Shown here one piece after another: positions 1-34,082 of a stretch of DNA of 64,000 bases. Within the stretch, counting starts at the first letter, position 1. Every line of letters starts with the position of its first letter. The notes below the pieces were generated by a model. It saw nothing but the letters and a program-made list of their open reading frames with translations. It had not been told where the DNA came from and did not search any database. The position numbers were made by a program, and so were the translations under genes. Origin of the DNA: Lachnospiraceae bacterium (GTDB taxonomy: Bacteria; Bacillota; Clostridia; Lachnospirales; Lachnospiraceae); the NCBI GenBank assembly GCA_017624835.1, contig JAGAMG010000054.1, forward strand, positions 1 to 64,000, given 5' to 3'.

Positions 1-1403
1 TCTCGCTGACTTCTTTCTACATCCCGGTGGTAATTGCTGTTTACATCTCTATTCACAATTTCATCCGTATGTAAGCTACTGCGATTAAATACATTCAACT
101 CTGACTGAACCATTTCATTTACATTTGATTCCGTCAAATATTCCAAATGTACTCCGGAATTTTGCTGCACTTTTATCTGTTCATAGTACATCCCAAGATT
201 TCCAATACCATTGGGCTTGGCCATGGTAAGCATCTGTTCCTGTCGCTGAATAAAAGCCATCGTTTTTTCCAGAATGGTTTCTTTTAGTGTTTCCGCATCC
301 ACACTTCCAACACTTGTAAACCCGATATGGTTGCTAATGGCGTTATGAACATTTGTATTGTATGCTTGTTCATTTATATTCAGTGTATTTATATTCGTAT
401 TTTGAACATTGCTATTTTGAACATCCGCACCTTGGACATTTATGTTTTGAACATCTCCGTTTTGAACATTTGTGTTTTGAACATTTGTGTTTTGGACATT
501 CCTGTCTTGGACATTCGTATTTTGAACATTCGTGTTTTGGACATTCGTATTTTGGACATTCCTGTCTTGGACATTCGTATTTTGAACATTCCTGTCTTGA
601 ACATTCGTGCTTCGGACATTCGTATTTTGGACATTTATCTTTTGAACATTTCCATTTTGAACATTCGTGCTTTGTTCATTTATGTTTTGGACATTTCCAT
701 TTTGAACATTCGTGTTTTGGACATTCGTGTTTTGGACATTTCCATTTTGAACATTCGTGTTTTGAACATTCGTGTTTTGGACATTCGTGTTTTGGACATT
801 TCCATTTTGAACATTCGTGCTTTGTGCATACATATTATGTACATTTAGGTCTTGCACATTTATATGTTGCATATTTATATTTTGCACACTCCTATTTTGC
901 ACTCTGGTATCTACTACCTTAGTTGCATATGCACTACTGCTCCATATATTTTCAATCTTCCGAAACAAAACTTCCTGTTCCCTTGATACTACCGGAAGAC
1001 GTTCTTTTAAAATCTCAAATTGCTCTACACCGCCCCGTTGAACCAATCGGTACATCTGCTGACTAAAATTCTTTACAATCTGCGCTTCTGCCTGAGGCAT
1101 TTCTTCCCTTACCAGTTTTTCAATCTGTTTTTCCACAGATGGATACAAATTCTGATATAATCTTTTTTCCAGCATCTGGGTAAGAAAAGTTAAATTCTGT
1201 CTATACAGATAATTTTCTTCTTTAATATTTTGAATATTATAGAGATTTGTAATAATATTTTGTGATGAGGGAACTGTTTCCTGCTCTGTTCCTTGCTCAT
1301 CCTCCAGATATATCATGGCGATGGGCTCATAGTCGTAACCAAACCCACTGTGTCTGGCTATTACTTTTTCTGCAAAATCTAAAAAATGATTTTGTGTCTG
1401 CAT
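1..1403 (-). CDS. Pentapeptide-repeat protein of the CIS cluster, C-terminus cut by window edge
   Basis: The reading frame opens at the ATG at 1403, with GGAG eight bases upstream, and runs without a stop to the window edge, giving at least 467 residues. About 160 N-terminal residues look helical and charged. Then about 35 tandem five-residue units of the type QNTNV or QNGNV follow (DNA about 391-915), and then at least 130 non-repetitive residues. The repeat is rich in Asn, Gln and Thr and lacks the central Leu/Phe of the classical pentapeptide-repeat family, so a flexible or beta-solenoid linker is only a guess. It is the next gene after the second tube gene, where related clusters often carry a LysM or baseplate adaptor. 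No LysM is visible in the part seen. Function unknown; the gene itself is secure. Confidence 0.8.
   Translation of the reverse strand, partial: MQTQNHFLDFAEKVIARHSGFGYDYEPIAMIYLEDEQGTEQETVPSSQNIITNLYNIQNIKEENYLYRQNLTFLTQMLEKRLYQNLYPSVEKQIEKLVREEMPQAEAQIVKNFSQQMYRLVQRGGVEQFEILKERLPVVSREQEVLFRKIENIWSSSAYATKVVDTRVQNRSVQNINMQHINVQDLNVHNMYAQSTNVQNGNVQNTNVQNTNVQNTNVQNGNVQNTNVQNTNVQNGNVQNINEQSTNVQNGNVQKINVQNTNVRSTNVQDRNVQNTNVQDRNVQNTNVQNTNVQNTNVQDRNVQNTNVQNTNVQNGDVQNINVQGADVQNSNVQNTNINTLNINEQAYNTNVHNAISNHIGFTSVGSVDAETLKETILEKTMAFIQRQEQMLTMAKPNGIGNLGMYYEQIKVQQNSGVHLEYLTESNVNEMVQSELNVFNRSSLHTDEIVNRDVNSNYHRDVERSQR
391..915 (-). repeat. 15-bp in-frame tandem repeat, about 35 units
   Basis: Units of the form acattcgtgttttgg (plus strand) follow each other in exact 15-base phase from about 391 to 915. 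Each encodes one pentapeptide on the minus strand. Several units are identical and groups of three to four recur in the same order around 691-825, which suggests recent expansion by slippage or unequal exchange. Confidence 0.9.
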
Positions 1404-1436
1404 TCTCTCATCTCCATGCTTCCGTCATCAAATGAC

Positions 1437-1865
1437 TTATTTTATCTCTTTCATATAACTGTACACAATTTCCAAACGGTTCACAATCACTTCCCCGTTT
1501 CCTGCGTTCAAATCTCCAAAGTCAATTTTTTTGATATAACACCCATCAAAACTATACGTGACCACAGGTTTTGAAGCATCATCTCCTAAAATCATAACTG
1601 TAACTCCCTTAAAAAGCATCCTTCCGGGAGTCAGTTGACTAAGTGCCTCATTCGATTTGGACATGCCATATTCCAATACCAATGTGCGTTCTCCGGTTAC
1701 TCCACCATTCATATAATGAACATGTTGATTTAAACCTCCTTCTCGTAAAGCCTCCATATTAACGCTCCGTTCAAAGCCGGACACTTTTGAAAAGGATAAC
1801 AGCACACCGTTTACTTCCACTCGGAAATTAAAATTTTTATATAGCAGATATCTATCCTCCGCCAT
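1437..1865 (-). CDS. CIS inner tube protein 2 (T4 gp19-like)
   Basis: This is a small tail-tube protein of the phage T4 gp19-like family. It would form hexameric rings in the inner tube, probably at the baseplate end (Pvc5/Afp5 role). The signature is an N-terminal strand pattern NFNFRVEVNG followed by FSKVSGFE, the usual start of this fold. I place the start at the ATG at 1865, because GGAGG lies seven bases before it and the protein then begins like other tube proteins (142 aa). An upstream in-frame ATG at 1889 overlaps the stop of the preceding -1 frame (TAATG) and could give 150 aa by translational coupling. The first tube gene lies at 2517-2957. Confidence 0.85.
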   Translation of the reverse strand: MAEDRYLLYKNFNFRVEVNGVLLSFSKVSGFERSVNMEALREGGLNQHVHYMNGGVTGERTLVLEYGMSKSNEALSQLTPGRMLFKGVTVMILGDDASKPVVTYSFDGCYIKKIDFGDLNAGNGEVIVNRLEIVYSYMKEIK

Positions 1866-1888
1866 CCTAAGCACCTCCGCATAGTTCA

Positions 1889-2080
1889 TTACACTTCAAA
1901 AATATTCTTGGGTTTGTTTGTCACTTTTTTGTGAATTTCCGAGATTTCTGCGCAGAATCTTCGTCTCGTCTGATGATCCATCTGCATCACCGATTCATAA
2001 CTCCAATGGAAATAGTACGCCACAAACGCAACTTCCTTATAGAGTTCATCCTCCGGATAGACGACTATTCCGCTCTCATA
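1889..2080 (-). CDS. DUF6760-like small protein in the -1 frame, probably made as a frameshift extension
   Basis: After the slippery heptamer at 2086-2080 the -1 frame is open for 63 codons and ends at TAA 1891-1889. It reads YESGIVVYPEDELY and continues with a segment containing VAYYFHWSYESV and RRRFCAEISEIH. This resembles the short DUF6760-type proteins found between tail-assembly and second-tube genes in other CIS clusters (recognised from memory, not searched). No ATG occurs at a suitable place: the first in-frame ATG is about halfway through, and GTG occurs only inside the conserved part. It is therefore most simply made by -1 frameshifting from the 122-residue gene, giving a fusion of about 181 residues. 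A non-AUG start is the alternative. Confidence 0.7.
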   Translation of the reverse strand, partial: YESGIVVYPEDELYKEVAFVAYYFHWSYESVMQMDHQTRRRFCAEISEIHKKVTNKPKNIFEV

Positions 2081-2433
2081 AAATTTATCGGTTTCTCAAA
2101 CTTCTCTCCACAATGAGGACATACACAGTTTTCCGTCAACACATCCATTGAATTAATGGTCTGGTACATATTCTGTAAAAATGCCAAATCTGCTGAAAAA
2201 AGTTTTTCAATGGTTGCAGGACGAATATTCTGTACTGTTCCAAGCTGTGTAATAACTCGGGATAATAAAATAATTGTTAAATATCCGGGATTACTTACCA
2301 CGCGAGGATCACGAAGGGGTAAAATTTCATCTGCAGCCGTTGCAAGACGCATGATACCTTTTTTATGTATTTCCCCATCATTATCCACATATCCTCTGGG
2401 AAGCTCAAATTCAAATTCTGTAATTAATTCCAT
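2065..2433 (-). CDS. CIS tail-assembly protein with CxxC motif (zero-frame product)
   Basis: This protein of 122 residues has the pattern of the tail-assembly proteins that follow tube genes in CIS clusters: an early acidic Phe-rich strand, LPLRDPRVVSNPGYLTIILLSRVI, written here only as a landmark around residues 38-60, then a helix with LFSADLAFLQNMYQTIN. It ends with a Cys pair, CVCPHCGEKF, which may bind zinc. The start has GGAGGAG seven bases upstream. It probably acts like phage tail chaperones in tube assembly (inference). Its last codons overlap the -1 frame of the DUF6760-like segment through AAATTTT at codons 117-118, four codons before the stop. Confidence 0.75.
   Translation of the reverse strand: MELITEFEFELPRGYVDNDGEIHKKGIMRLATAADEILPLRDPRVVSNPGYLTIILLSRVITQLGTVQNIRPATIEKLFSADLAFLQNMYQTINSMDVLTENCVCPHCGEKFEKPINFMRAE
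2080..2086 (-). other. Candidate -1 ribosomal frameshift slippery site
   Basis: On the minus strand the bases read A AAT TTT with AAT and TTT as zero-frame codons, the canonical X XXY YYZ arrangement. Both tRNAs can re-pair after a one-base backward slip. The zero-frame stop TAG is at 2067-2065, while the -1 frame stays open to 1889. Confidence 0.65.
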
Positions 2434-2470
2434 GTTATTGCTCCTCCGATATTGTATCTAAAAGTAGATT

Positions 2471-2499
2471 CCAGACTTCCCGTAATCCGGGAAGTCTGG
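2471..2499 (-). terminator. Hairpin after tube 1 gene (partial terminator or mRNA 3' stabiliser)
   Basis: A perfect 12-bp stem (CCAGACTTCCCG with its complement) and a five-base loop lie just after the tube 1 stop at 2517. There is only a short, interrupted T stretch downstream on the minus strand, so it may reduce rather than stop transcription. This would help make sheath and tube in excess of downstream parts. Confidence 0.6.
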
Positions 2500-2516
2500 T
2501 ATTCTCCTTATAGCTC

Positions 2517-2957
2517 TTAGCTTTCTCTTATCATAGATTCATATACAAGTTCTACACTCTCAAATGCAATTTCACTGGAGCTTGCATTGAAGTCAGGCGC
2601 TGTATATTTGCTGGGCCAAGCATTGGTTAATGTCCATACTGCAAGAGCAGTGGATCCGTCATCGTCAAACAATGTAATGGTTACACTCTTATTATGATCT
2701 TCACCAAGAGATGTTCCGGTGGAAATGGATGTTACCCAATCATAGAAGCTCATAGAGCTTGTCATGCCCCATTTCAATGTTACATTACCAAATTTTGTTA
2801 AACCATTCATCTTACGTGACCAGTTTACACCCTCGTCACCTGTACGATATTCAATTACATCAATACTTGCATCAAAGCCACTTACTTCTGAAAAGCTAGC
2901 CTCTGTAATTCCGTCAATTTCAACCTTATAGTTATATTTTTTAAATGGATATGCCAC
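2517..2957 (-). CDS. CIS inner tube protein 1 (T4 gp19-like)
   Basis: This 146-residue protein is the main tube subunit by family (phage T4 gp19-like) and by place directly after the sheath. Visible marks are YNYKVEIDG, the SEVSGFDAS turn and a C-terminal ESVELVYESM strand. The start is GTG at 2957 with AGGAGG about nine bases upstream; no ATG fits. It shares fold and N-terminal pattern with the second tube protein but little else, as in other CIS with two tube types. A strong hairpin follows the stop. Confidence 0.92.
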   Translation of the reverse strand: MAYPFKKYNYKVEIDGITEASFSEVSGFDASIDVIEYRTGDEGVNWSRKMNGLTKFGNVTLKWGMTSSMSFYDWVTSISTGTSLGEDHNKSVTITLFDDDGSTALAVWTLTNAWPSKYTAPDFNASSSEIAFESVELVYESMIRES

Positions 2958-2992
2958 GATTAGTTCCTCCTTTAGCTTTCTTTCGTGTTATC

Positions 2993-4705
2993 TTATGATT
3001 CTTCCATAAACTGAGTAATTCTAAAGATTACAAATTCTGCAGGTCTGCTGGGTGCTACACCAATTTCACAAATAAGACGTCCGTTCAGAATATCACTCTG
3101 AGACATTGTGTCACGACCAATATTTACAAAGAACGCCTGATCTTCTGTTGAACCAACCAAAGCACCATTTCTCCACATATCGCGAAGGAACGCACGAATG
3201 GTTCTGCCAACTCTTGCCCACAGCATCTCATCGTTGGGCTCGAATACTGCCCAGTTCGTCTGAGACTTAATGCTCTCCTCAAGATAGATAAAGAGACGAC
3301 GAACGTTGACATATTTCCACAGGCTGTTGCTGGAACAGGTTCTTGCACCCCATACACGAATTCCCTGTCCGGGAAGTGTACGAATCAGGTTTACACCTGC
3401 AGGATTCAAAATATCCTGCTCTGCCTTATTGTACAGACAGGAAAGTCCGATACAATTATAAACCACTTCGTTAGCAGGTGCTTTGTGAACACCACGTTCA
3501 ACATCACTTCTTGCATAAATACCGCAGACTGCTCCTGAAGGTGGAATATATGCAGGCTTCTTATTTAATGCATCATAAACCTGAATCCAAGGATGATACA
3601 TTGCAGCATAGTCAGAGTCAATTTTTTCTCTGTGACTTAATACATCATTGGGCTTTGTCAAATCTCTGGGTACATCCAGCACTGCAAAGCTTGCACCGGT
3701 ATTTGCACAATGTGCAACCAATGCCAACTGCACTGCAGGACTTGTAACACCGGGAATTGCCATAATGCTTACATTGTTGATTTCCTTAAATGCTGCCAAA
3801 CCGGTTCTCTTACCGGGGCCACCATCAACACCCATAAATACATCGTCTGTAACAGCCTTTGTACCGCTGGTACCGCCTGCAAGGAATACAACAGCCTTGT
3901 CTGCATTAGCCGCACCAAATACTGTCAAAGGATTAACTCCATCTGCCACATTGTCAGCTGCTACATTTACCAGCTCAGACTTTGCCATGCTCTTTGCAAT
4001 ATAAGATGCTGCACTGATATTTAAGGATACTCCTTCATAAATTTCAACCTGATCTCTGTAGGATACTTCAATATTCATTTCGCATACAGATAAGGTCTTC
4101 TTGGGAACTGCTCCCTTATCAACCAAATCCTCTTTCACAGGAGTAGCAAGTGTAATAGTATTACCCTGTGCCATGGCGATTTTGTTATATCCAATTACTT
4201 TATCGTTGTTACGAATTACAATGGTGTCACCTTCAGCAAAAAGGGAACCATTTGCCACAGTATAAACTTTACCTGTAGCATCTTCTCCAGTTGCTTCCAG
4301 AACAGCTGTCTTACCTTTATTTGCTGCAACTGCTGTAATTTTAATTTCATTACCCCACTTACCGGGATTTTTTGCTGCAATGGTTACACCATTTGCAGAA
4401 ACTGCTGCTGCAGCTGCATCTGCTGCTACTGTACGCATTACATAACAACGAGTACCGCCGTTTGCAAAAAACTGCTCAACTGCATATGCAAGATAACGAT
4501 ATTCGCCATATCCTGCTTCGGGTAAATAACCACCGAATTTACGGGTAAAATCTGCAAAACTGCTTACAAATTCAGGGGTACCAATCACATTACCCTTTTC
4601 AGCCATACCAATAAATCCTGCGGTACTGGTACTTACACCCTCCATGGGTCTCATACCGGACTCAAATTCCTCTACATATACTCCTGGTGATAAATATTCT
4701 GCCAT
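2993..4705 (-). CDS. CIS/phage tail sheath protein
   Basis: This 570-residue contractile sheath subunit would surround the tube and drive injection on contraction. The N-terminus MAEYLSPGVYVEE and the block TAGFIGMAEKG are typical of phage tail sheath proteins. The C-terminal domain has RTLPGQGIRVWGARTC and ends with a polymerisation arm region near ISQFME-like residues (ITQFMEES). An Ala-, Thr- and Val-rich region at about 100-260 probably forms the variable outer domain. Only one sheath gene is present here, while Pvc/Afp-type clusters have two or three. The best Shine-Dalgarno sequence lies 37 bases upstream (see separate entry), with only a weak AAGAGA close to the ATG. Confidence 0.96.
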   Translation of the reverse strand: MAEYLSPGVYVEEFESGMRPMEGVSTSTAGFIGMAEKGNVIGTPEFVSSFADFTRKFGGYLPEAGYGEYRYLAYAVEQFFANGGTRCYVMRTVAADAAAAAVSANGVTIAAKNPGKWGNEIKITAVAANKGKTAVLEATGEDATGKVYTVANGSLFAEGDTIVIRNNDKVIGYNKIAMAQGNTITLATPVKEDLVDKGAVPKKTLSVCEMNIEVSYRDQVEIYEGVSLNISAASYIAKSMAKSELVNVAADNVADGVNPLTVFGAANADKAVVFLAGGTSGTKAVTDDVFMGVDGGPGKRTGLAAFKEINNVSIMAIPGVTSPAVQLALVAHCANTGASFAVLDVPRDLTKPNDVLSHREKIDSDYAAMYHPWIQVYDALNKKPAYIPPSGAVCGIYARSDVERGVHKAPANEVVYNCIGLSCLYNKAEQDILNPAGVNLIRTLPGQGIRVWGARTCSSNSLWKYVNVRRLFIYLEESIKSQTNWAVFEPNDEMLWARVGRTIRAFLRDMWRNGALVGSTEDQAFFVNIGRDTMSQSDILNGRLICEIGVAPSRPAEFVIFRITQFMEES

Positions 4706-4752: not shown

Positions 4753-4770
4753 TTTGTATTTTTCACTATG

Positions 4771-5163
4771 TCAAGGTACCATAACGGTTGTTGCCGGACC
4801 GGGTGACACAACCTGTATCACTCCTGCCCAGTTACACATGCATTTACATGTGTTATTAACTGCCGGTTTTCCTCCTACAAGCACAGTTGGAGAACCTGGC
4901 GCCCATGGTGCCGTAATGACCGGCACACATGGCATGGGAGTTAAAACTCCCGCTGCTGCAGATGTTGCAGCTGCCACTTGCGGATTTGCCATGGAGCTAC
5001 ACATTCCAAATGGCATAATGTTTGTCATCGGAATATTATCCATAATGCAGGCCGCTGGCATATTTTTACATAAAGTTTTGCTTGTCGGTAAGACATTCAG
5101 GACAGAAGGCGTCATTCCAAAACTGCACATCAGCTGTGCCCCCGACGTTACAATAATTGACAC
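4771..5163 (-). CDS. DUF4280 PAAR-like spike tip protein
   Basis: The protein matches the DUF4280 PAAR-like family: VTSGAQLMCSFG at the start, a central AAGVLTPMPCVPVI region, and the end PTVLVGGKPAVNNTCKCMC with a final GVIQVVSPG strand. These small beta proteins cap the spike of contractile systems or link effectors to it. I choose GTG at 5163 (130 aa), because GGAGG lies six bases before it. The TTG at 5169 would sit directly on the Shine-Dalgarno sequence. It follows the Ig-like gene, whose stop is at 5166, and precedes the sheath gene. The several Cys residues are usual for the family and may bind metal at the tip (inference). Confidence 0.85.
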   Translation of the reverse strand: MSIIVTSGAQLMCSFGMTPSVLNVLPTSKTLCKNMPAACIMDNIPMTNIMPFGMCSSMANPQVAAATSAAAGVLTPMPCVPVITAPWAPGSPTVLVGGKPAVNNTCKCMCNWAGVIQVVSPGPATTVMVP

Positions 5164-5165
5164 AT

Positions 5166-5882
5166 TCAACCTCCTCTCCCTTTTGATAATAATCTATGAT
5201 GAAATATCATCACATTCTGAATTAAATCTTCTTCCCCGTAATCAACGGGAATTGCATAGGCACCTTTTTCGTCTGTCACGGATCTGTAAATCCGCTCCAA
5301 GGGTATTCCTGCCTTCAGCTTTTTAGGTGGTTCTCCCAGAAATTCTACCCGGTATTCATTTATCCCGCGTCTTTCTGCAAGAATAAAAGCAACTGTTTCT
5401 TTACCATCCTCTAATATATATGGCTTACCAAGTAATTTTTCCTGAGTAAAGCCTTGCAATATCAACCAATCACCTGCTGCTTTTCTGTATTCCTTCAAAG
5501 TCAGACCGGTAGGCTTACTTCTCTTTGCATATACTTCAGCCGGTAATTGCGTCCCCTTACTTTTTAAAACTCCTCCCAATACTCCATAAGTGTATGGTAA
5601 ATTTTTACCTACTTTTCCATACATACGAATTTCTGCAATGGGTTCATCCGGGTTCAAAAGTTTTTTTTGTATCAAGGCGCTACAGGGATAATAATCTGTT
5701 CCCTCTATACAAACTCGCGTTTCCTCCTCCTGGGGTTCCAAAAAAACAAATAGTCCCTCTTCCTTTTCAATTGGGTGTACCACCCGTTCTCCAATGGAAA
5801 ATACAAATTTCTTTCTCCGTATATCCATTCCGGAAAAATCATCCACCAGCCGAAGGACAAATGCAATCTTCATTTTAATCAT
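5166..5882 (-). CDS. Ig-like protein next to Pvc16 (unknown function)
   Basis: This gene encodes 238 residues. The N-terminal 75 residues, with LRLVDDFSGMDIRRKKF and EGLFVFLEP, have the look of carboxypeptidase-regulatory-like or Ig-type beta domains that in other CIS clusters are attached to or sit beside Pvc16/DUF4255 proteins. The rest (about 85-238) is not recognised. It has GGGAGG six bases before the ATG and ends three bases before the DUF4280 start. It may be an accessory of the cap or of the spike; that is inferred only from position. Confidence 0.6.
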   Translation of the reverse strand: MIKMKIAFVLRLVDDFSGMDIRRKKFVFSIGERVVHPIEKEEGLFVFLEPQEEETRVCIEGTDYYPCSALIQKKLLNPDEPIAEIRMYGKVGKNLPYTYGVLGGVLKSKGTQLPAEVYAKRSKPTGLTLKEYRKAAGDWLILQGFTQEKLLGKPYILEDGKETVAFILAERRGINEYRVEFLGEPPKKLKAGIPLERIYRSVTDEKGAYAIPVDYGEEDLIQNVMIFHHRLLSKGRGG

Positions 5883-5896: not shown

Positions 5897-6466
5897 TTAA
5901 CCACTGCCTTTTTGAAATGTATCAAATTCAGCTGATACCACACGCTTAAACGTACGAACTCTTCTGGATGATAAAAGTACAGGTGACACACTAAAGTAAA
6001 CTGCTAATTGGTAGGGCATAGAAAGCACCGACCATACTTTAGTTTTCTCTTCAAAACTGAGTGGCAACAAGGTAATGGAACCTCTGCTCTCCTCCTCATC
6101 CTCTGCCGGAAAAAGGATGGCATTATCCATCAATACCTGTATTGCTCTACCCAAAATTCTCTGCTCATTTTCTGCATTGGCCATTAATTGGGATTTTGAA
6201 TTGATATACAATGCAAAAAACAGATTTAATGGCTTGGGCGGATACTGTGCCTGATTACCTCTCATACGAATCAAATCCATCTGCTGATACTCCCTTAATT
6301 CCTGAATATCATAGAGATATAATCCTAATTGAAAATCTGCATTTTTATCAGTAGGTGCTGCCAGCGCAATGGATTCCGGGGATTGAATCAGCTCCGGACA
6401 AATATTATCACGCAAAACCTTCAGCACCTCATTGCTGACATCCGAGATTATTGAAAAATCTGCCAT
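5897..6466 (-). CDS. Pvc16-type (DUF4255) tail cap/terminator protein
   Basis: This 189-residue protein is the Pvc16 N-terminal (DUF4255) family, which ends tube and sheath growth at the distal end in CIS particles. Marks are FSIISDVSNEVLKVLRDN at the start, the strand LGLYLYDIQELREYQ, the PLNLFFALYI block and the late LAVYFSVSPVLLSS-RR segment. Length agrees with a stand-alone DUF4255 domain. It has GGAGG six bases before the ATG and lies 14 bases after the MORN gene. Confidence 0.88.
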   Translation of the reverse strand: MADFSIISDVSNEVLKVLRDNICPELIQSPESIALAAPTDKNADFQLGLYLYDIQELREYQQMDLIRMRGNQAQYPPKPLNLFFALYINSKSQLMANAENEQRILGRAIQVLMDNAILFPAEDEEESRGSITLLPLSFEEKTKVWSVLSMPYQLAVYFSVSPVLLSSRRVRTFKRVVSAEFDTFQKGSG

Positions 6467-24126: not shown

Positions 24127-24178
24127 CAGCTTTCGCCTCCGTTGTATTTCCAATTGATATCACTTTATCTTACTAACT

Positions 24179-26017: not shown

Positions 26018-26020
26018 TCT

Positions 26021-26560
26021 TTAAATTCCTTTTCGCTTTCTACAATCTTCATTGGCCTGCATCAATTTATCTTTTACCATATCGTATCCAACACCCATTT
26101 CCAATATGGTATCTGCAACCAATCCCCCGTCGAAATTTTCTCCATCCGCACCGGTTATGGTTGCCCTGTATTGCACCATAGGTGCTTCCTCACCATCCAC
26201 TTCACCAAAGAAGTAATGCCCCACTCTCACAGTCCTGTTTAATTCATTTAATAAAAGAATTACCTCCATGGTACTCAGCGCTGAGATATCCGTTTTAATC
26301 TGTGTATAAAAGAGGAGATATTTTGCCAGACGCTTCTCAGTATCATCCAGATCCAATAAATAAGCAGATGCCACATGCATCTTCTCCGGAACCACCTCAT
26401 CTCCCTCCATGATATCTTCCACACTGGGAAGGCAAATCAATAAGGTAGACTCTTCAAAAATTTGATTTTTGGGTATTACCTCGGATGCAATTTCCACATC
26501 ATTTAAAAAGTCTCTCAAATATTCTAATTCTTCTAATTTTTCCTGTTCACTAAAGCCCAT
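26021..26560 (-). CDS. Putative YbjN/secretion-chaperone-like protein
   Basis: The product has about 179 residues if translation begins at the ATG at 26560, which I prefer because the longer frame from 26608 overlaps the end of the preceding gene. AAGGAGAGG lies about 15 bases before it, somewhat far. The C-terminal part (VILLLNELNRTVRVGHYFF, then VQYRATITG and VADTILEMG) has the strand and helix order of YbjN or type III secretion chaperone-like folds, but this is a weak match by eye. It lies between the possible cargo gene and an ATPase, a good place for a cargo chaperone (inference). Confidence 0.6.
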   Translation of the reverse strand: MGFSEQEKLEELEYLRDFLNDVEIASEVIPKNQIFEESTLLICLPSVEDIMEGDEVVPEKMHVASAYLLDLDDTEKRLAKYLLFYTQIKTDISALSTMEVILLLNELNRTVRVGHYFFGEVDGEEAPMVQYRATITGADGENFDGGLVADTILEMGVGYDMVKDKLMQANEDCRKRKGI

Positions 26561-26582
26561 AATATTATTTTCCCTCTCCTTT

Positions 26583-28541
26583 TTATTCCTGTCCGAATGA
26601 TTCTGCAATTCTCTCTTTCAGCTCTGTTCTGGACTTGGATGCAATCAAATCGGACATGGTAACATCCAAACCTCTTCTCAATATAGCATGTAAATGTTTT
26701 ACATTTCTTCCTTGCCGTATCAGGTCTTTTCGTCCGTTTCCGTCCTTTAAATTTTGAAGTTCCGTTTTAGACTTAAATTTAGATCCGCTCCAAACATTTT
26801 GCGATGAACTGATTTCCGTCATCCGATCCATAAGAGAAATTGCCATATCTGTACGAGTAGTATCTTTATTATCCTGTGTTCCGGTCAATTTTCGCGCTCC
26901 GTTATACACCTTCGAAACTGCATCCCTGGTTGTATCATAAGCCCCAAGTGCCAATCCGACAGCCTTGCCGGCCGTAACTAATGCCACCCCACCGGGAGCT
27001 CCTGCCACACTCAGTATCGCAAGCTCTCCTGCAAGTTTCAAACCATTACCTATAATACCAGCGCTTCCGGTACCTATATCCTCTAAAGTATGGTATAATG
27101 CTTTCCTCATCTTTTTATGAGACTTATCTGCTTCTCTGTACTGTTCCATCATTTCCAATGCTTCCAACTGACGTTTCTTAGATTTATTCTCTTTATTCAC
27201 TTTCCCATCAGTACCTACAGTCTCAATCGCACTAATTCTGTTACCCAAACCATACTGGAGATTTCGATAAGCACTATCATTTCTGGAACGAAGCTTCGTA
27301 GCCTTCGTCATTTTACCGGTAGTTCCCGGCGTTCCCTTCGTTACAGCCTCTTTTCCAAGCGATTCCATCAAACTCCTGCGCTTTTTATCCACTGTTTTGG
27401 CTTCCGTAGAAAAAAAACCTATTTTTCCTATATCATATGCCTCTGCTGCTTCTTTATCCGTTGCTGAATATTTATCCCTTTTTGCCTGAATTCTCTTAAA
27501 TATTGCATTTCGTTCTCTTCTCATAAATTCAACATGCACCGAAGTTGCAACCATATCTATCAGATCAAATATAAAATTAGTACCACCAAAGATAAGTCCG
27601 GTAATACTTCCATAAAGCGGAATCTCACTTCCCCATGCGCCGCCTATCCCAATAAAACCCTCCAAAATGTCTACGCCTTCACGCAAATACTTTCTAATCA
27701 GCTTAAATCGTTCCTGATTATCCCGATTTACGGAATCTCCCGCATCATGATTTTTCTTAAATTCTTTATAGATACCGATTCCATGATTAATTAATTTTAG
27801 AAAGGCTCCAAAGCCTCCCAGCACTGCACCTATAACTCCACCGGCTTCACCGGCACCTTCTTCATCATGTATATCCTTTGCAACCTTATCAATATCGGAA
27901 AGATCTATGGAATCACCAACTATATCATTCCCCGTACCCGCTGCATCCGTGACACTGGTCAGTTTACCTATTGTTCCCGTTATATGACTCTTAAAATTCA
28001 AAAAATAGTCTTTTACTGCTTCCTTTACATTATGAGGTGAACTCGCAATTTTTTCCTTAGCAACTTCTTTTCTGGTAATTTCTCCATTACCAACATCATA
28101 TTTTCCTTCATCATCTGCCGGGTTAATATCACCCGGCAAAGTAGCATTTTTCGCAATTAAAGTCTCTAATGGCGTATTTCTTTGCTTATCAATAGCATTT
28201 ACATATTTCTCGGTCTTATCATTCTTTCTTTTCGTATTTTCCTGCTCTGTTATACTGCTATTTGCAGTTTCCAATGCATTATCCAACTCCGCTTTTGCAC
28301 TTTTTGCGTCTGCTTCATTACCGGCCTGGGACTCCCATAGTGCCTTTTCTTTCACAATTTGATTATACTGCTCCCTTGTAAGCTTGGTATTCTGAGCTCT
28401 TTGTGTTAACGCCTGAATTTGGGTTAAAGCCTCTTTTTTCGAAGCACTATCATCCTTGTTCTGTTTCTTGGAAGAAGTTTTATTATCCTTTTTCTTACCA
28501 CCAATATGAAATGTATCTTTTAAAAAATTTCCTAATGCCAT
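26583..28541 (-). CDS. Large protein with disordered basic N-terminus and glycine-rich hydrophobic segments; possible CIS cargo
   Basis: This 652-residue protein is not recognised. Residues 1-50 are Lys- and Ser-rich and look unstructured. Residues about 50-130 are helical and charged. Three Gly-rich hydrophobic stretches follow: GGVIGAVLGGFGAFLKL, then a region with FIGIGGAWGSEI and LIFGGTNFIFDLIDM, and later LAILSVAGAPGGVALVTAG. This combination of an unfolded basic head and amphipathic or membrane-active segments is seen in several loaded CIS effectors and in pore-forming toxins. It has AAGGAG before the ATG and is flanked by the two Pvc15-type ATPases and the chaperone-like gene. A structural role (for example tape measure) is the main alternative. 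Confidence 0.6.
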   Translation of the reverse strand: MALGNFLKDTFHIGGKKKDNKTSSKKQNKDDSASKKEALTQIQALTQRAQNTKLTREQYNQIVKEKALWESQAGNEADAKSAKAELDNALETANSSITEQENTKRKNDKTEKYVNAIDKQRNTPLETLIAKNATLPGDINPADDEGKYDVGNGEITRKEVAKEKIASSPHNVKEAVKDYFLNFKSHITGTIGKLTSVTDAAGTGNDIVGDSIDLSDIDKVAKDIHDEEGAGEAGGVIGAVLGGFGAFLKLINHGIGIYKEFKKNHDAGDSVNRDNQERFKLIRKYLREGVDILEGFIGIGGAWGSEIPLYGSITGLIFGGTNFIFDLIDMVATSVHVEFMRRERNAIFKRIQAKRDKYSATDKEAAEAYDIGKIGFFSTEAKTVDKKRRSLMESLGKEAVTKGTPGTTGKMTKATKLRSRNDSAYRNLQYGLGNRISAIETVGTDGKVNKENKSKKRQLEALEMMEQYREADKSHKKMRKALYHTLEDIGTGSAGIIGNGLKLAGELAILSVAGAPGGVALVTAGKAVGLALGAYDTTRDAVSKVYNGARKLTGTQDNKDTTRTDMAISLMDRMTEISSSQNVWSGSKFKSKTELQNLKDGNGRKDLIRQGRNVKHLHAILRRGLDVTMSDLIASKSRTELKERIAESFGQE

Positions 28542-28544
28542 ACC

Positions 28545-30728
28545 TTAGTTCTCCTTTTCTTCCATCAAATAGTAATATGGTCCAAAATCACTGGCTATTA
28601 ATTTTTTACCATTCTTTGCCATCTCTCGTTTTACCGATATCAATATATGTTTCATATTAAGTTCCGTCTGTTCACCGGCTGCCAGAAAGGCGGCTGCCAC
28701 CGCAACATTTTTAATCTGACTTCCTGAAAAATGAAATTCCTCTGCTAAATAATCCACATCCAGTTCTTCCTTAGGCAAATTAGCAGGAAATACCTTCTGC
28801 CAGATTTCTTTTCTTCGAGGGGTATCCGTAAACGGAAATTCAATAATAAAGCGGAATCTTCTCAAAAAAGCATTGTCAAAATTCTGTAGCAGATTAGTCG
28901 CCAATATAATAATACCTTCGTATTCTTCTATCTTCTGTAGCAGATAGGCTGTACTCGCATTTGAATATTTATCATTGGTATCCTTTTGCTCTGTTCGCTT
29001 TCCAAACAGTACATCGGCTTCATCAAAAAACAAAATACTCTGACTCCTTTTTGCCTGTTCAAATATATTACCAAGCTTCTTTTCTGATTCTCCTACATAC
29101 TTGGACATAACCCCCGCCATATCCACCTTGTACAACTCCAAATTTAATTCGTTGGCAATCACCTGTGCTCCCATGGTCTTTCCGGTTCCGGGTGGTCCAT
29201 AAAAAATCATGGATACTCCTCTGCCATAGGCAAGCTTTTCTTCAAATCCCCATCTGTGATAAACCTGATGATGCAGCAGCACCTGATTGCAGGCATCCTT
29301 CAGCATGGTTTTCTGAGGTGCGGGCAGTACCAAATCCTCCCATTTGTACTGTGCACGAATACGCACCGCATCCTTTCCCAGCCTGTGGTCAATCTGATTC
29401 CTGCAAGCCTCCAAAAGCCAGGAAATCCGGGGTTGTCCATCCTCCATCTGCAAACGGTCACGATACTCTGCCACACAGCTTTTGATACACCCCGCCGATA
29501 ACACATATTTATCTGCAAGAAATTCTATGTTTAAATCCACAGGAATTTCCTCCGCAGATAAAAATTGTTTCCAAAGAATCATTCTATCATCCGTCGTGGT
29601 TTCCGGGATGGTAAGCTTACGAATGCTTCTGTCACCTTCCTGTATCTTCCGATCCCATTCATATTGGGAGGTTAATATCAAAATTCCATTCCAGGAATGC
29701 ATTCCCCTGAGAATATTCTCCACTTTTTCACAGCTTACCTTTTCACATTCCCTGTCCGCTTCCAAATCATAGATACAAATTGCCGCATTCCCCTGCAGCA
29801 CAGCTTCTCTCATAACACGTCGCAGTATTTTCCGAAGCATTTCTTCCTCCTCCGGAAGTCTGCGACTGTCAACTAATAACAGCAGTTGCTTGTGTCGTTC
29901 ACAGAATTTCGCCGCCTGTAGCTTTTTTCCTGCACCATGCTCACCGCACAAAAAGAAGGTCTCATCACCGGTTCCTCTTTCATATAATCGGTCTAAACCA
30001 TCCGCTATTTTCTTATGTATGGAAAGAGTCTGGTTTTTTCCATGCTTGTATCCATATTGCAGGATTCCCGTGAGTGCTTCATCCACGCTCTCAAAATCCT
30101 GCAAATACGACACAATTCGATAATCAAGCTTTAAATCACTTTCAAACAGACTGTCCCTGCTATTAAACACACCATTGCTGATTTCATCCATGCCATTAAA
30201 CAAAAGTGCAAGCACATTCCACCGATGCAGGCATTGCTGCTGAAGCCTTCTCCTCTCTGCTTCCACTTGGGTATACAACCGGATTCCAAGACTGAGAGTT
30301 GGCATTCTCACTCCGGTTTTTTCGCTAAGAGAAGCAAGCAACATCTCAAGATTATGGTCTAACTCCCCGGTCAGTGCCAAAATTACCAAAAATGCTTCAA
30401 ATTCATCCAATCCCCAAACATGAAATAAGTATTCCAGAGCAATCATTCTTCCGCTTCGAAGGGTTCTTATTCCACATTCCCTAATATCCTTTATCTCCTC
30501 CAAAAATACCTTTTGGATGTTTTCCCCGTCAGCAGCGCCCTTTCTTTCTCCTGCAAGCTTCAGCAGTTCCTCACGGTATACCACTACACCGCCGCTATTT
30601 GGCATAAGTCCGCTGTCCGCCGCCTCTACATATCGCTCCACATAATCAGCCAGCATTCTGCGAATACAGTCCAATAATTCCTGATAATATTCCTGCTCAT
30701 TACGAAATATTTTTCTTACTTTCTTCAT
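28545..30728 (-). CDS. CIS AAA+ ATPase (Pvc15-type), copy 1
   Basis: The protein has 727 residues. The C-terminal AAA+ domain has Walker A GPPGTGKT, Walker B SILFFDEADVLFG, sensor 1 IILATNLLQNF and RRFRF arginines. The N-terminal half carries a decayed P-loop, GEHGAGKK, at about 260. The catalytic halves of this gene and the 612-residue gene are clearly similar, while their N-terminal halves are not, which fits two ATPases with different partners. The start overlaps the stop of the upstream gene (ATGA). Confidence 0.9.
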   Translation of the reverse strand: MKKVRKIFRNEQEYYQELLDCIRRMLADYVERYVEAADSGLMPNSGGVVVYREELLKLAGERKGAADGENIQKVFLEEIKDIRECGIRTLRSGRMIALEYLFHVWGLDEFEAFLVILALTGELDHNLEMLLASLSEKTGVRMPTLSLGIRLYTQVEAERRRLQQQCLHRWNVLALLFNGMDEISNGVFNSRDSLFESDLKLDYRIVSYLQDFESVDEALTGILQYGYKHGKNQTLSIHKKIADGLDRLYERGTGDETFFLCGEHGAGKKLQAAKFCERHKQLLLLVDSRRLPEEEEMLRKILRRVMREAVLQGNAAICIYDLEADRECEKVSCEKVENILRGMHSWNGILILTSQYEWDRKIQEGDRSIRKLTIPETTTDDRMILWKQFLSAEEIPVDLNIEFLADKYVLSAGCIKSCVAEYRDRLQMEDGQPRISWLLEACRNQIDHRLGKDAVRIRAQYKWEDLVLPAPQKTMLKDACNQVLLHHQVYHRWGFEEKLAYGRGVSMIFYGPPGTGKTMGAQVIANELNLELYKVDMAGVMSKYVGESEKKLGNIFEQAKRSQSILFFDEADVLFGKRTEQKDTNDKYSNASTAYLLQKIEEYEGIIILATNLLQNFDNAFLRRFRFIIEFPFTDTPRRKEIWQKVFPANLPKEELDVDYLAEEFHFSGSQIKNVAVAAAFLAAGEQTELNMKHILISVKREMAKNGKKLIASDFGPYYYLMEEKEN

Positions 30729-31585
30729 GAATCCTCATCCTCCGGGTTATCTTCCGCATCACCATGCTCCGAAGTTTCCTTCATCGCCTTTTTCTTTTCT
30801 CTGTAATATGCCTCTATATCCTTCTTTTGCACATCATAGGCATAATTTAATCGCCTTAAAAAGCCCTTGCCCATGGCATCTTTTCTTATCAGAATAGCTT
30901 CCAGCAGGTTTTCCATCGTCAAATTCTGTACTGCATCCCCGCGAAGATTTCTGATTTGAGTTTCCTGTTCCATGGACTGCTTTTCCTCTGTTGTCCCTTT
31001 TTCAGAAGCCATTTCCATGCGAATTTCCCTGATTTCTTCCTGAATTTGCTTCCGTTCTCTTTTAATCGCTTCCAGTTCTTCTTTTTCCTCATTCTTAGTA
31101 AGAAAAGGCATGGTCTTTAATACAGCTTCCATATTGGAATGCTTTAAATAAGTTCCAATGCTACGCTGACTCCATGGCTTATTTTCTCTCTTTTCTATTA
31201 GAACAACTGCCATTTCCTTCCGCTTTGACACATAGGCTCTATTTACATTTTCGCCCTTTCTCTGTGCCCTTTTTCGATAGTCCTGTAATTCCTTCTGGTA
31301 ATGGCTTGCCACCGTATCATATCTGGAGGTCTTCATATTTGCAAATAAGAATACTGTTTCGCGATTGGGATTATATCCCAATTGAATGGTACCAAACATA
31401 TTATCCTGTTTCATAAGCCTGTCACAGTTAAAAAACTGACCTGACACATTCTCTTCATAGTACCCTTCTATCTTTTTGTGTTCCGCGAAATAGTCCACCT
31501 GCACATGACTGGCCGTAGTAAGGCGATCCATCGTCTCACGAAAATGCTCTACTCTTTTCTCTTCTCTGCTGCTTTCTAATTCCAC
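30725..31585 (-). CDS. Coiled-coil protein, first gene after the regulator (unknown)
   Basis: The product has about 286 residues from GTG at 31585, which has AGGAGG seven bases upstream. An ATG 24 bases earlier lacks such a site. The N-terminal 150 residues are a mixed fold with GTIQLGYNPNRETVFLF. Residues about 160-215 are strongly charged and would form a coiled coil. The C-terminus is acidic (DAEDNPEDEDS). No family is recognised. Its last bases overlap the next start, so it belongs to the same operon. Confidence 0.65.
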   Translation of the reverse strand: MELESSREEKRVEHFRETMDRLTTASHVQVDYFAEHKKIEGYYEENVSGQFFNCDRLMKQDNMFGTIQLGYNPNRETVFLFANMKTSRYDTVASHYQKELQDYRKRAQRKGENVNRAYVSKRKEMAVVLIEKRENKPWSQRSIGTYLKHSNMEAVLKTMPFLTKNEEKEELEAIKRERKQIQEEIREIRMEMASEKGTTEEKQSMEQETQIRNLRGDAVQNLTMENLLEAILIRKDAMGKGFLRRLNYAYDVQKKDIEAYYREKKKAMKETSEHGDAEDNPEDEDS

Positions 31586-31635
31586 GAAACCACCTCCTAG
31601 CCTACGCATACTACTCTAATTCTATTTTGACACAA

Positions 31636-31681
31636 AAGAGTAGGAATTACACTACCCAAATGGGCAGTCCTTCCTACTCTT
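31636..31681 (-). terminator. Hairpin at the end of the regulator gene, before the CIS operon
   Basis: An 11-base inverted repeat (AAGAGTAGGAA and its complement, 31671-31681 and 31636-31646) encloses a smaller palindrome around CCCATTTGGG. It is followed on the minus strand by TTTTGTGT. It includes part of the regulator stop codon. It could end most regulator transcripts or serve as a regulated attenuator or operator for the operon that starts 50 bases later. Confidence 0.6.
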
Positions 31682-34082
31682 AAACCAAATTGTATTCTTT
31701 TATTTTATTAATCGCTTGTCCACGGCTCTTTACATCCAGCTTCTGAAATACATTCTTCAAATGATATTTAATGGTATTTTCCGACACAAAAAGCTTTTTG
31801 GCAATCTCTGCATTTTTATCTCCATTTGCCAAAAGCTTCATAATCTCTTTTTCATGAGAAGTAAATTCACTAATATCAATTGCCATCTGTTGTTTCATAT
31901 ATTGAGGATACTGGAGCATATGTGCCCTGACGGCAGATAATACTTCCTTAAAATATGAGTTATCCATCCACTTACTATCTTTCTGTGCAAGCTCCTGCAA
32001 TAGCCCATACAAAATAGCGCCTTCCTCTGCAAACACTCTGATAAAATGAACTTTTTCTCCATATTCCAAGGCAGGAACCAACTCCTCCTTCCATCGCTCA
32101 CTTTCTTCTTTTTGATAAATTACGGCTTTCAATATCCTTACCTTCATTTCCAGATAACGCATACCATAATTCTCAGAAAATTCCTGCAAGGTCTGTAAAA
32201 TCAGCATGGCCAGAACATAGTTTTCCATCCAAATATACACTTTGGCTTTAATCAGATATTGATAATAATGTATGGTAAAAAAACGCCCCTTTTCATCCGG
32301 AGCCTGTCGTTGCAACCACTCCATGATTTTTTCTTTTTCATTTTTAACCAGATAAAAATATACCTGATGCGCTGCCAGATTATCTGCAAAAAGAGTTCCC
32401 TGTTCCTCCGATATATCTATCTTTTGGGTAACAAACTCTTCCATATTATCCAATTGATTCTTTGCAAGCAGCAAATCAGCCATAGCAACTGTACAAACCT
32501 GTTGCATTCTCTGATTTCTTGTTGTACCGGCTTCCCAAAGAGTACGTGACAACAAATTCAGTGCCTGATCCAATTTGTTTTGTTCATATAATATTTCCGC
32601 TTCCGCGAAACCATACATTTGATTAAATACATTGTCCAGAACCCCCTCGGTCAACCGGCGAAGCTCACTAAATATATTGCCCGTTTTTTCATTTGCCCAA
32701 ACATCACAATAATCCTTTTCCCCATGAAGAACAGAAAGATACTCTGCTTTAAATCTTTCGCTGTCCCTTGTTACCGCCTTATAATTCTTGACTTTCACCA
32801 GAAGTTCCTGCAGTTCTTCCATATTAACCGCACCCATGCGCGCCAGGCGCAGATACATCAATTCCCCTTCCAGCATCTCCTTTTCACCGGGATTGGCCAT
32901 CTGCATAATATACTTTTCAAACATCTCTTCATATTTTGCAGACTTCATCATATTCCCATTAATCGTTTCCAGAGTAGCCTTACTTATCATAAGCATTGGA
33001 TGCTTCATCAGACAGAACAGGGATATGTTCTGCAAATACTCTTCCAACTCCAAAAAATCATTAAAATTTCTATTATTATACAGAAGCTTCTCCAAATATT
33101 CTGCCATTTGCTCTTCCGACTCTAAAATATAGGCATATCGCAGGGCTTCCTTCCATTTTTTCCGTTCTCCTGCATAGGCCAAGGCCTTTCTGTACATATT
33201 GCGGATTTCTTCCATGGTCAAATACTTATGCCTTGCACGATTTAGAAATCGGGCAAAAAGGGAATCAAACCTCCATCCTTCTTTGCCGGCTACCAGAATA
33301 CTTCCCATTTCTAGCAATTGTTGCAAAAATTCCCTGCCCTGTTTTACCTGCATGTCCAACATAGCTGCTACTACGGTTTCATCAAAGCAATCCAAGCAGG
33401 ATATATACAGGAGCTGCTCCTGTTCTTTTACCTTCAGCTTATGAAAAAGCATCACATCTATATATGCATATACATCTTCAAAGCAACGTTCCCGCATAAG
33501 CTTAGAATATTTTTCTCCGGAATCAGTCAGTAAATTTCCCAACAAATAGATACAAAGTGGCATATTATTAAAATCCTGTTCTATTTGCCGCAATGTCTCT
33601 TGACTGATTTTTATTCCTTTCTTATGAAAATACTCACCGATTTCTTTATTTGCAGGCTTTAACGCATCTATTCCATAGGTATTGATTTTATAAAACAAGG
33701 TATGAGGCAGCATTTCTTGTGGAAATGGTACTTCTGAAGAAATCAGGATGCTATCTCCTTTTTTCTTTTCCGTCGCCAATCTTTTAACCACTTCAAAGTC
33801 ACCGTCACGAATCACTTTTTCCAAATGCGGAATAATGATTACCCGTTCCTCTGCCTGAGGCAAATCCTTTATCTGCTGCTCAAGAGAATATTCCTCTGCT
33901 TTTTCCAGCCAATAGATATTCCCTGCATTTTTGTAATAGAAATCTACCAAAAAAGCATACTTTCCCCATCCCATGGGGGCACAAATTAAAAGAATATCAC
34001 ATTCCTTCAAATCCGACAGAATACGATGTTCCAAATTCTGATTTTTAATACGAATCTCTTCTGTATCTTTTGGCTTATTCAT
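31680..34082 (-). CDS. MalT/LuxR-family transcription regulator, probable CIS activator
   Basis: The protein has 800 residues. The N-terminal NTPase part has a P-loop-like APMGWGKYAFL, where the usual Thr/Ser after Lys is Tyr, so nucleotide binding may be altered. A TPR-rich middle follows, and a C-terminal LuxR helix-turn-helix with SHEKEIMKLLANGDKNAEIA and VSENTIKYHLKNVF. The domain order is that of MalT-like STAND activators, which bind a ligand, oligomerise and activate transcription. Its own promoter (34129-34157) and AGGAAGG ribosome site are clear. It is the first gene of the cluster and directly precedes the CIS operon, so local control is likely (inference). Confidence 0.9.
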   Translation of the reverse strand: MNKPKDTEEIRIKNQNLEHRILSDLKECDILLICAPMGWGKYAFLVDFYYKNAGNIYWLEKAEEYSLEQQIKDLPQAEERVIIIPHLEKVIRDGDFEVVKRLATEKKKGDSILISSEVPFPQEMLPHTLFYKINTYGIDALKPANKEIGEYFHKKGIKISQETLRQIEQDFNNMPLCIYLLGNLLTDSGEKYSKLMRERCFEDVYAYIDVMLFHKLKVKEQEQLLYISCLDCFDETVVAAMLDMQVKQGREFLQQLLEMGSILVAGKEGWRFDSLFARFLNRARHKYLTMEEIRNMYRKALAYAGERKKWKEALRYAYILESEEQMAEYLEKLLYNNRNFNDFLELEEYLQNISLFCLMKHPMLMISKATLETINGNMMKSAKYEEMFEKYIMQMANPGEKEMLEGELMYLRLARMGAVNMEELQELLVKVKNYKAVTRDSERFKAEYLSVLHGEKDYCDVWANEKTGNIFSELRRLTEGVLDNVFNQMYGFAEAEILYEQNKLDQALNLLSRTLWEAGTTRNQRMQQVCTVAMADLLLAKNQLDNMEEFVTQKIDISEEQGTLFADNLAAHQVYFYLVKNEKEKIMEWLQRQAPDEKGRFFTIHYYQYLIKAKVYIWMENYVLAMLILQTLQEFSENYGMRYLEMKVRILKAVIYQKEESERWKEELVPALEYGEKVHFIRVFAEEGAILYGLLQELAQKDSKWMDNSYFKEVLSAVRAHMLQYPQYMKQQMAIDISEFTSHEKEIMKLLANGDKNAEIAKKLFVSENTIKYHLKNVFQKLDVKSRGQAINKIKEYNLV

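Follow-up and report, generated by a model that had tools for sequence, protein, structure and literature searches.

Membrane-protein genes accompany a contractile injection system in Clostridia

The window analyzed here, a 64,000-nucleotide stretch from a Lachnospiraceae bacterium (assembly GCA_017624835.1, contig JAGAMG010000054.1) that forms the first 64,000 bases of our contig C49, carries a gene cluster for a contractile injection system (CIS). Three genes of this cluster, encoding a receptor, a MORN-repeat protein with a transmembrane segment (MORN-TM) and a pseudokinase with a transmembrane segment (pseudokinase-TM), go with this CIS across Clostridia. The CIS itself belongs to a known kind, and the membrane-sensor module is its new part. 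The features on which the comparison turns are:

11736..13529, minus strand: baseplate-periphery protein (Cis13/Cis19-like), 597 amino acids (aa), with an immunoglobulin-like C-terminal region at residues 510-597
10819..11709, minus strand: pseudokinase-TM protein, 296 aa, with a kinase fold, one transmembrane (TM) segment and a short tail
8117..10786, minus strand: receptor, 889 aa
6481..8088, minus strand: MORN-TM protein, 535 aa (Pfam MORN, E 6.7e-19; hydropathy; alignment of 25)
2993..4705, minus strand: sheath (Cis2; PF04984 and PF17482; best PDB match 9EZM, E 6.6e-117)

We compared a genus set of 138 genomes, 28 of them with a sheath gene, and a class set of 391 genomes drawn from the class Clostridia. 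Sheath contigs numbered 115: the window, 28 contigs from the 27 other sheath-bearing genomes of the genus, 80 named loci, and 6 class contigs. Outside the genus, 22 class genomes match the sheath, and the 6 contigs come from those among them with E below 1e-120. Removal of four duplicates left 111 contigs, of which 79, the window's own locus included, contain 9.4 kb or more of DNA on the upstream side of the sheath gene.

The pseudokinase-TM gene occurs in 16 of the 138 genus genomes, and all 16 lie within the 28 that bear a sheath; chance would produce this with a probability of 9e-14 if the genomes were independent, which they are not. A sheath match of any strength was found in 24 of the 391 class genomes and one with E below 1e-120 in 8, and these 8 are exactly the genomes with the 8 best receptor matches (E 1.7e-46 or lower; next-ranked genome, 1.7e-44). 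Receptor matches extend to 19 class genomes in total, 8 with a window-type sheath, 10 without a sheath, and one (G456) with CIS genes in a draft that lacks a sheath. Pseudokinase matches in the class set come from 10 genomes and comprise 5 strong ones, all accompanied by a sheath, 3 weaker ones and 2 marginal ones. At the level of loci, a MORN-TM gene lies within 26 kb of the sheath gene in 59/79, and a receptor cyclase domain is present in 57/79, namely 56 of the 59 MORN-bearing loci plus L121. This last count uses a cyclase-domain profile; a profile of the whole receptor gave 59/79, including two loci that match in the HAMP domain only (G073 and L132). The MORN-bearing loci without a cyclase-domain match are G047, which lies at a contig edge, and L137 and L176, which do not. 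The pseudokinase gene is present in at least 35/79 loci, a lower bound because most named loci cover just 10 kb upstream of the sheath gene, and MORN is present on all 38 contigs with a pseudokinase.

Gene order and gene fusion point the same way. The block lies upstream of the sheath gene in the window's clade and in most named loci, and in G046, G048, G049, G050, G109, G122 and G125 the periphery, pseudokinase, MORN, cap, 238-aa protein and PAAR genes stand together behind the baseplate genes. Pseudokinase, TM segment and MORN array form a single reading frame in G046, G047, G048 and G049, the G047 copy being cut by the contig end. Co-occurrence, movement as a block and fusion together rule out a chance neighborhood or hitch-hiking of the membrane genes. 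An earlier reading of the window, made without database searches (the sequence-only reading), had named a lack of conservation of the membrane genes with the CIS genes as the outcome that would count against it; we looked for that outcome and did not find it, since receptor, MORN-TM and pseudokinase-TM accompany this CIS across Clostridia.

Twenty of the 79 loci lack MORN. Eleven of these come from one CIS lineage of the genus that lacks the block, and the remainder are L132, L169, G106, L121, L130, G162, L135, L171 and L162. The genomes of L132, L169 and G106 have no pseudokinase and no receptor beyond HAMP-level matches, the G106 contigs ending 5.3 kb behind the sheath, and the L162 genome has neither receptor nor pseudokinase. 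L121 encodes a divergent receptor beside its CIS. The L130 genome carries a receptor outside the compared stretch, the L135 and L171 genomes carry both receptor and pseudokinase outside it, and in G162 receptor and MORN were found in the adjoining 20 kb.

A degenerate receptor cyclase and a pseudokinase

The receptor is composed, in order, of a beta-propeller (residues 28-317), two TM segments, an extracellular region, a further TM segment, a HAMP domain, a class III nucleotidyl cyclase fold that has become a pseudo-cyclase (625-829) and a helical, TPR-like C-terminus. Kyte-Doolittle hydropathy assigns four TM segments to this HAMP protein and one each to the MORN and kinase-like proteins. The MORN-TM protein begins with an 88-aa N-terminal part, crosses the membrane at residues 89-107 and continues with MORN repeats and a C-terminal domain.

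The first metal-binding Asp is present in 0/64 cyclase domains from CIS genomes, and is missing there within one column on either side as well, versus 9/10 in CIS-free relatives. All four catalytic residues (two metal Asp, a transition-state Asn and an Arg/Lys) occur together in 0/64 CIS-genome copies versus 7/10 CIS-free relatives, with the columns beyond the first Asp less securely aligned in diverged copies. Three identical domains were removed before these 64 were counted; 58 of the 64 are on sheath-bearing contigs, and those of L225, L226 and L231 are at other places in genomes that carry a CIS. The missing residues rule out the receptor as an active signaling enzyme. The CIS-free relatives (L233-L236 and L239-L244) are membrane proteins with a HAMP domain, a cyclase domain and a TPR-like C-terminus, and seven of the ten belong to one genus with genomes of 0.8-1.2 Mb. 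In a locus of the G122 type (L045:1441-6161), a fusion of a Cache domain to a major facilitator superfamily protein (1004 aa) and a HAMP-SpoIIE protein are encoded next to the block's pseudo-cyclase; G456 (L237) has this pair as well.

The product of 10819-11709 has a kinase fold, and a viral fold search with it returned mostly kinases. Read by eye across 24 aligned pseudokinases, the DFG motif is present in none, the catalytic-loop Asp in 5 and the Lys at the VAIK position in 4, never both in one protein, and the window's protein is unlikely to act as an active kinase. Membership of the EssB/YukC family was considered and rejected, as PF10140 does not match the pseudokinase gene (seven genomes, up to E 10); that EssB is also absent from the fold matches listed carries no weight. 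Pseudokinases whose ends look LysM-like by eye were recorded, in Clostridia without any Pfam sheath, at L189 and L204 (G148:C395 and G186:C2) and at L190 (G152:C46). In G148 and G186, the LysM-type gene adjoins one for a propeller-like protein of 384-387 aa with two TM segments, and the two resemble a counterpart of this sensor pair that occurs without a CIS. At L130:8580-9728, a pseudokinase-like protein with a Pfam LysM domain is encoded on the opposite strand, directly beside a CIS sheath gene.

A baseplate-periphery protein with a lineage-dependent C-terminus

The gene directly preceding the pseudokinase gene encodes a protein whose N-terminus matches the NCBIfam family CIS13_fam (NF053767; E 1.7e-22, with 80 bits where the cut-off is 370) and whose residues 19-79 match the Anabaena crown protein Cis19/All3314 (PDB 7b5h, profile match, E 0.0034). 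It is found in 29 of the 138 genus genomes, 27 of the 28 with a sheath and two others. Its middle region occurs also in the lineage that lacks the block, whereas the C-terminal region (residues 510-597) is present in 35/35 full-length copies from MORN-bearing loci versus 0/10 full-length copies from that lineage, counts that leave out copies shorter than 450 aa (contig or stretch ends, and a 404-aa copy in G004). L121, counted as MORN-less, has the C-terminal region together with its divergent receptor. Fibre tips are usually variable; the periphery protein is conserved to its C-terminus, with a mean column identity of 43% over 18 sequences. We take region 510-597 to be the likely dock to the membrane complex, with the caution that this distribution reflects few evolutionary events.

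The injection system belongs to the PVC/Afp lineage

The cluster has the gene content of the lineage of extracellular CIS (eCIS) that includes the Photorhabdus virulence cassettes (PVC) and the antifeeding prophage (Afp): sheath, gp19 tubes, a Cis7-like protein, spike, PAAR, gp25, baseplate, cap and ATPase. The parts and the PVC lineage named in the sequence-only reading are upheld by Pfam, which supports the sheath, two gp19 tubes, the DUF4280/PAAR tip, the Pvc16_N cap and two AAA ATPases, as well as the MORN protein, the HAMP protein and the repeats of the two giants. The final 141 bases of contig C36 are identical to window positions 1-141, and the cluster continues onto C36, where a Cis7-like tube protein, hub, spike, gp25, two large baseplate proteins and a Tail_P2_I protein are encoded. 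The core parts on C49 and C36 thus make up a headless CIS in which none of the usual parts is missing, divided over two contigs.

Against PDB, the sheath matches that of Halogeometricum borinquense first (9EZM, E 6.6e-117) and that of Streptomyces coelicolor second (8BKY, 1.3e-103), and those of Pvc, Afp, Anabaena and others less well (E 2e-49 or weaker). For the Baseplate_J protein, S. coelicolor supplies the top match (9GTP, E 6.9e-26). Sheath relatives are encoded in 209 of 234 pattern stretches (genome_contigs), and the best 80 of the 209 are assigned to Clostridia or to unresolved bacteria, with Lachnoclostridium sp. An196 (90%) closest to the window. Of the parts that mark type VI secretion systems of subtypes i-iii, Pfam found no TssJLM trans-envelope complex and no ClpV among the 30 cluster proteins, the remaining genome not having been searched for them.

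Several other identities were rejected. A prophage or phage tail is ruled out by the absence of head and terminase families among the 30 proteins scanned; neither these nor lysin or holin families appear at E 0.01, and the sole hint of a lysis function is a sub-threshold Amidase_3 match (E 0.042) in the gene at 30725-31609. In the phage collection, 679 records match the sheath, none across 80% of its length, and the pseudokinase has no match at E 1e-3. A plasmid-borne system was rejected after a search of the plasmid collection at E 1e-10 found nothing that matches the receptor. The idea of a shorter particle in the lineage that lacks the block was dropped: the starts of the sheath and Cis7-like genes are 3.6-4.1 kb apart in that lineage versus 2.8-9.4 kb elsewhere, and 2.8-3.0 kb apart in four MORN-bearing genomes (G046-G049). 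L132 (Clostridium asparagiforme) and L169 have a related sheath and tube with at most one recognized baseplate gene within 10 kb, in genomes without a pseudokinase, and G162 has a second CIS cluster (L238).

Proposed working and alternative explanations

We consider it moderately probable that the CIS is retained by the cell that makes it, docking on the inner face of that cell's cytoplasmic membrane and firing from there. In favor of this stand the co-occurrence, block movement and fusion described above, the lost catalytic residues of the cyclase, the distribution of the periphery protein's C-terminal region, a closest PDB sheath that belongs to the membrane-bound haloarchaeal CIS, and the absence of lysin, holin and head families at E 0.01 among the 30 proteins scanned. 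The sequence-only reading had proposed an envelope-gated CIS with a sensor of its own: the sensor is borne out by the propeller, TM segments, extracellular region, HAMP domain and cyclase fold, whereas docking and attachment to the envelope are what we infer from gene content. Leaving aside the Cis13-like periphery protein, no tail-fibre family was recognized in the cluster, and this, together with a complex of sensor and dead enzymes kept with the CIS, suggests that the baseplate docks on this complex, which would gate firing by changing its conformation. Precedents described in the literature are consistent with such gating. All previously studied CIS are reported to need to bind a membrane before firing, for which Streptomyces requires the protein CisA (PMC12237407); a conserved membrane gene is described as accompanying the type VI secretion system (T6SS) mode in haloarchaea (PMC11566945); and TM pseudokinases are described as hubs of the type VIIb secretion system (T7SSb) and of a Gram-positive type IV secretion system (T4SS) (PMC9600267, PMC13037476).

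In the predicted topology, the propeller and the MORN repeats would lie outside and the kinase and cyclase folds inside. Receptor, pseudokinase and MORN-TM would join in one membrane complex, onto which the periphery protein would dock the baseplate, perhaps via its C-terminal region. An outside cue such as wall damage, a ligand or contact with a neighbor could shift the helices of the HAMP domain, and the two dead enzymes, cyclase and kinase, would relay this change by contact, without second messenger or phosphorylation. The baseplate would then open and the sheath contract through the membrane. The target could be either a neighbor (haloarchaeal mode) or the producing cell itself, which would be killed (Streptomyces mode).

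A number of observations weigh against this proposal. Contact between the membrane proteins and the baseplate is a prediction, and the TM counts come from hydropathy. The CIS lineage of 11 genus genomes has no receptor, MORN or pseudokinase, which implies that the core particle does not need the membrane proteins; as this lineage is one clade, the correlation reflects one event or few. Of the 24 class genomes that match the sheath at all, the 16 with the weaker matches (E 5e-72 to 4e-13) gave no receptor match at E 1e-20, and L137 and L176 have MORN and no receptor within reach. When G162 is included, with its receptor and MORN and without pseudokinase or the C-terminal region of the periphery protein, the count for that region becomes 35/36. 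Receptor relatives in 10 of 391 class genomes are CIS-free, 7 of them keeping all four catalytic residues, and the 3 weaker class pseudokinases have LysM-like ends (by eye) and come from genomes without any Pfam sheath; the modules are hence not specific to CIS.

A stronger form of the membrane-docked CIS is in our estimate less probable than not: the system would be the first cell-attached machine of T6SS mode in Gram-positive bacteria, a wall-piercing CIS seated on a complex of pseudokinase, MORN-TM and pseudo-cyclase receptor that senses an outside cue through propeller and HAMP domain, and fired purely mechanically through a relay of dead enzymes. The TolC-like or giant repeat proteins described below would then, just as tentatively, be lineage-specific parts for wall passage or contact. 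T6SSs had until then been described in Gram-negative bacteria only, according to the report on the T6SS-mode CIS of H. borinquense (PMC11566945, 9EZM). In that account, the haloarchaeal CIS acts from the cytoplasmic membrane, has a conserved membrane gene in its cluster, as the window does, and has its closest Cis11 relatives in Bacillota. Its putative anchor is described as one six-TM protein, whereas the window has three other architectures (receptor, pseudokinase and MORN), and the host is a surface-layer archaeon rather than a monoderm bacterium with a wall. Hydropathy assigns six TM segments to no protein among the 20 that the window contributes to the cluster; no sequence search with the six-TM family (Hbor_38620) was made.

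According to a first alternative, which we regard as unlikely though of weight, the CIS is cytoplasmic and self-directed, its free particles being recruited under stress and fired into the cell's own membrane to cause programmed death. Such a system would work like CisA with a different, larger sensor; it would be a sub-case of membrane gating with another target. S. coelicolor provides the second-best PDB sheath (8BKY, 1.3e-103) and the best Baseplate_J match (9GTP, 6.9e-26), and the cluster has no recognized tail-fibre or lysis family, the Cis13-like periphery protein aside. The Streptomyces system (PMC12237407, 8BKY/9GTP) is also Gram-positive and is reported to need a bitopic membrane protein for firing: CisA, a single-pass protein with a long, largely unstructured cytoplasmic N-terminus, one TM segment and a solute-binding-protein-like outside domain, predicted to contact the baseplate protein Cis11. 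Read against this description, no such architecture was noticed in the membrane proteins of the window; no sequence or fold search with CisA was made. The nearest sheath, however, is the contact-dependent haloarchaeal one (9EZM), and secreted, possibly wall-spanning partners such as the TolC-like protein and the giants are not obviously needed for self-killing.

A second alternative, an ordinary released eCIS, seems improbable to us. Here the Cis13-like protein would be a fibre binding target cells, and the membrane proteins would regulate the system, protect the producer or keep the particles at the cell surface, and do no more. Compatible with this are the GerE-type regulator in the cluster, as at many eCIS loci, and the lineage kept without the membrane block. 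The proteins beside the ATPase in G162 (L220/L218) and at L121:6977-8602 likewise resemble, by eye, DUF4157 cargo proteins. Two findings point instead to a fixed partner in the producer: pseudokinase and MORN can be fused, and the periphery protein is conserved right up to its C-terminus. The pseudokinase and MORN genes also move with the cap and periphery genes when gene order changes.

Two further comparisons bear on the membrane-docked CIS. The thylakoid-anchored CIS of Anabaena (PMC8894136, 7b5h) likewise has its anchor in a membrane of the producing cell, and it shares with the 11736-13529 protein the short N-terminal Cis19/All3314 stretch. Its anchoring is ascribed to Cis12 extensions and a TM segment in Cis13, and the passages of PMC8894136 on it describe no receptor complex, whereas the window has a receptor. 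EssB/YukC of T7SSb and TraF of the T4SS are described, like the window's protein, as pseudokinases with one TM region and a second domain behind it (PMC9600267, PMC13037476). Window-type pseudokinases differ from EssB in lacking a PF10140 match and in carrying behind the TM segment a short part, a MORN array or LysM (the last in L130 and distant relatives).

The sequence-only reading knew of no described system with this set, and we found none in searches on CIS of one open-access library; no paper was found there that joins contractile injection with MORN and HAMP, or with a pseudokinase, and the combination with Lachnospiraceae pointed to one paper, on cockroach gut genomes. A CIS with a conserved membrane sensor in gut and rumen Clostridia would provide monoderms with an injection machine that is attached or gated, and isolates could then be used to test what sets off a CIS from within the cell that carries it. 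The sensor would also exemplify enzymes turned into signal-passing scaffolds: next to a pseudokinase stands a CIS-recruited receptor cyclase that lacks the first catalytic Asp (64/64 copies). With EssB/YukC and TraF as the other two cases, the TM pseudokinase would recur as a hub in three unrelated kinds of Gram-positive injection or secretion machine.

Lineage-specific parts and remaining genes of the cluster

The cluster comprises 20 minus-strand genes running from 34082 to 1, with 19 intergenic gaps of -26 to 175 bp; from the sheath gene to 30725 every gap is at most 65 bp. Pfam domains, hydropathy and these gaps agree with the closely packed leftward run, including five membrane or surface proteins, described in the sequence-only reading. 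The remaining 15 genes are:

31680..34082, minus strand: MalT/LuxR-type regulator (TPR_MalT and GerE; Pfam E 2.4e-18 and 5.7e-18)
30725..31609, minus strand: 294-aa protein, function unassigned (sub-threshold Pfam matches only: RuvX E 0.016, Amidase_3 E 0.042)
28545..30728, minus strand: AAA ATPase 2 (Pvc15 type; winged-helix domain and AAA; Pfam PF22977, PF00004)
26583..28541, minus strand: 652-aa protein between the two ATPases (no family or relatives found in the contigs compared)
26021..26608, minus strand: 195-aa protein, function unassigned
24179..26017, minus strand: AAA ATPase 1 (Pvc15 type; Pfam PF00004, E 7e-28)
17680..24153, minus strand: giant surface protein B, 2157 aa, with Fn3_assoc/CHB_HEX_C_1 repeats and two terminal hydrophobic segments
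13531..17619, minus strand: giant surface protein A, 1362 aa, with repeats and terminal hydrophobic segments like those of giant B
5897..6466, minus strand: Cis16/Pvc16 cap, tail terminator (PF14065, E 2.2e-26)
5166..5882, minus strand: 238-aa conserved CIS-cluster protein between cap and PAAR, function unassigned
4771..5169, minus strand: PAAR-like spike tip (DUF4280; PF14107, E 1.8e-34)
2517..2957, minus strand: inner tube 1 (Cis1; PF06841, E 8.1e-43)
2065..2433, minus strand: 122-aa conserved small protein of tail-assembly type (weak Gp41_Mu match, E 0.041, below cut-off)
1437..1889, minus strand: inner tube 2 (PF06841, E 4.7e-19)
1..1403, minus strand: N-terminal part of a repetitive protein in tape-measure position, the rest on C36 (141-base overlap)

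The hydrophobic segments at both ends of each giant were read from Kyte-Doolittle hydropathy. The 3' part of the giant A gene adjoins the periphery gene in 11/11 window-clade loci that reach it (L104 and L105 are near-copies), four further loci of that clade ending short of the position; a gene of this type is absent from all other contigs of the 115, and the giant B position lies beyond the flanks of the compared loci. A secreted TolC-like protein is present in 42/79 loci (Pfam OEP, E 1e-7 for one member) and a second secreted protein between MORN and cap in 36/79. TolC-like (OEP) genes occur between the MORN-TM and cap genes in CIS clusters of monoderms, as at L056:6879-8927. We would guess that the giants or the TolC-like proteins form a passage through the cell wall or a contact surface on it. 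The sequence-only reading had treated the five membrane and surface families as one conserved set, which is not supported: giant A is limited to one clade, the TolC-like protein stands instead in 42/79 loci, and the 11-genome lineage lacks the block.

The 238-aa protein has 72 ORF matches spread over 71 contigs, and the 122-aa small protein is present in 102/108 contigs (tblastn). The 294-aa protein has no relative in the ORFs of 108 contigs, most of which end nearer the sheath than this gene, and the 652-aa protein is a cargo candidate by position only. The MalT/LuxR-type gene forms the upstream border of the run, with a [FeFe] hydrogenase beyond it, and its product likely regulates the cluster; GerE genes are reported to adjoin 25.8% of eCIS loci (PMC8213781). 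The short gaps would allow a single transcript over much of the run, but a terminator-like site lies in the 70-bp gap 3' of the regulator gene. Promoter counts are at chance level, as are terminator counts in 1-18000, and terminator counts in 17500-36400 are somewhat above those of shuffled sequences (22 versus 14.2, standard deviation 4.6). A hairpin of 12 pairs with a weak T tail lies at 2471-2499, in the gap after tube 1, and is possibly a partial terminator or mRNA end that raises sheath and tube over the genes behind.

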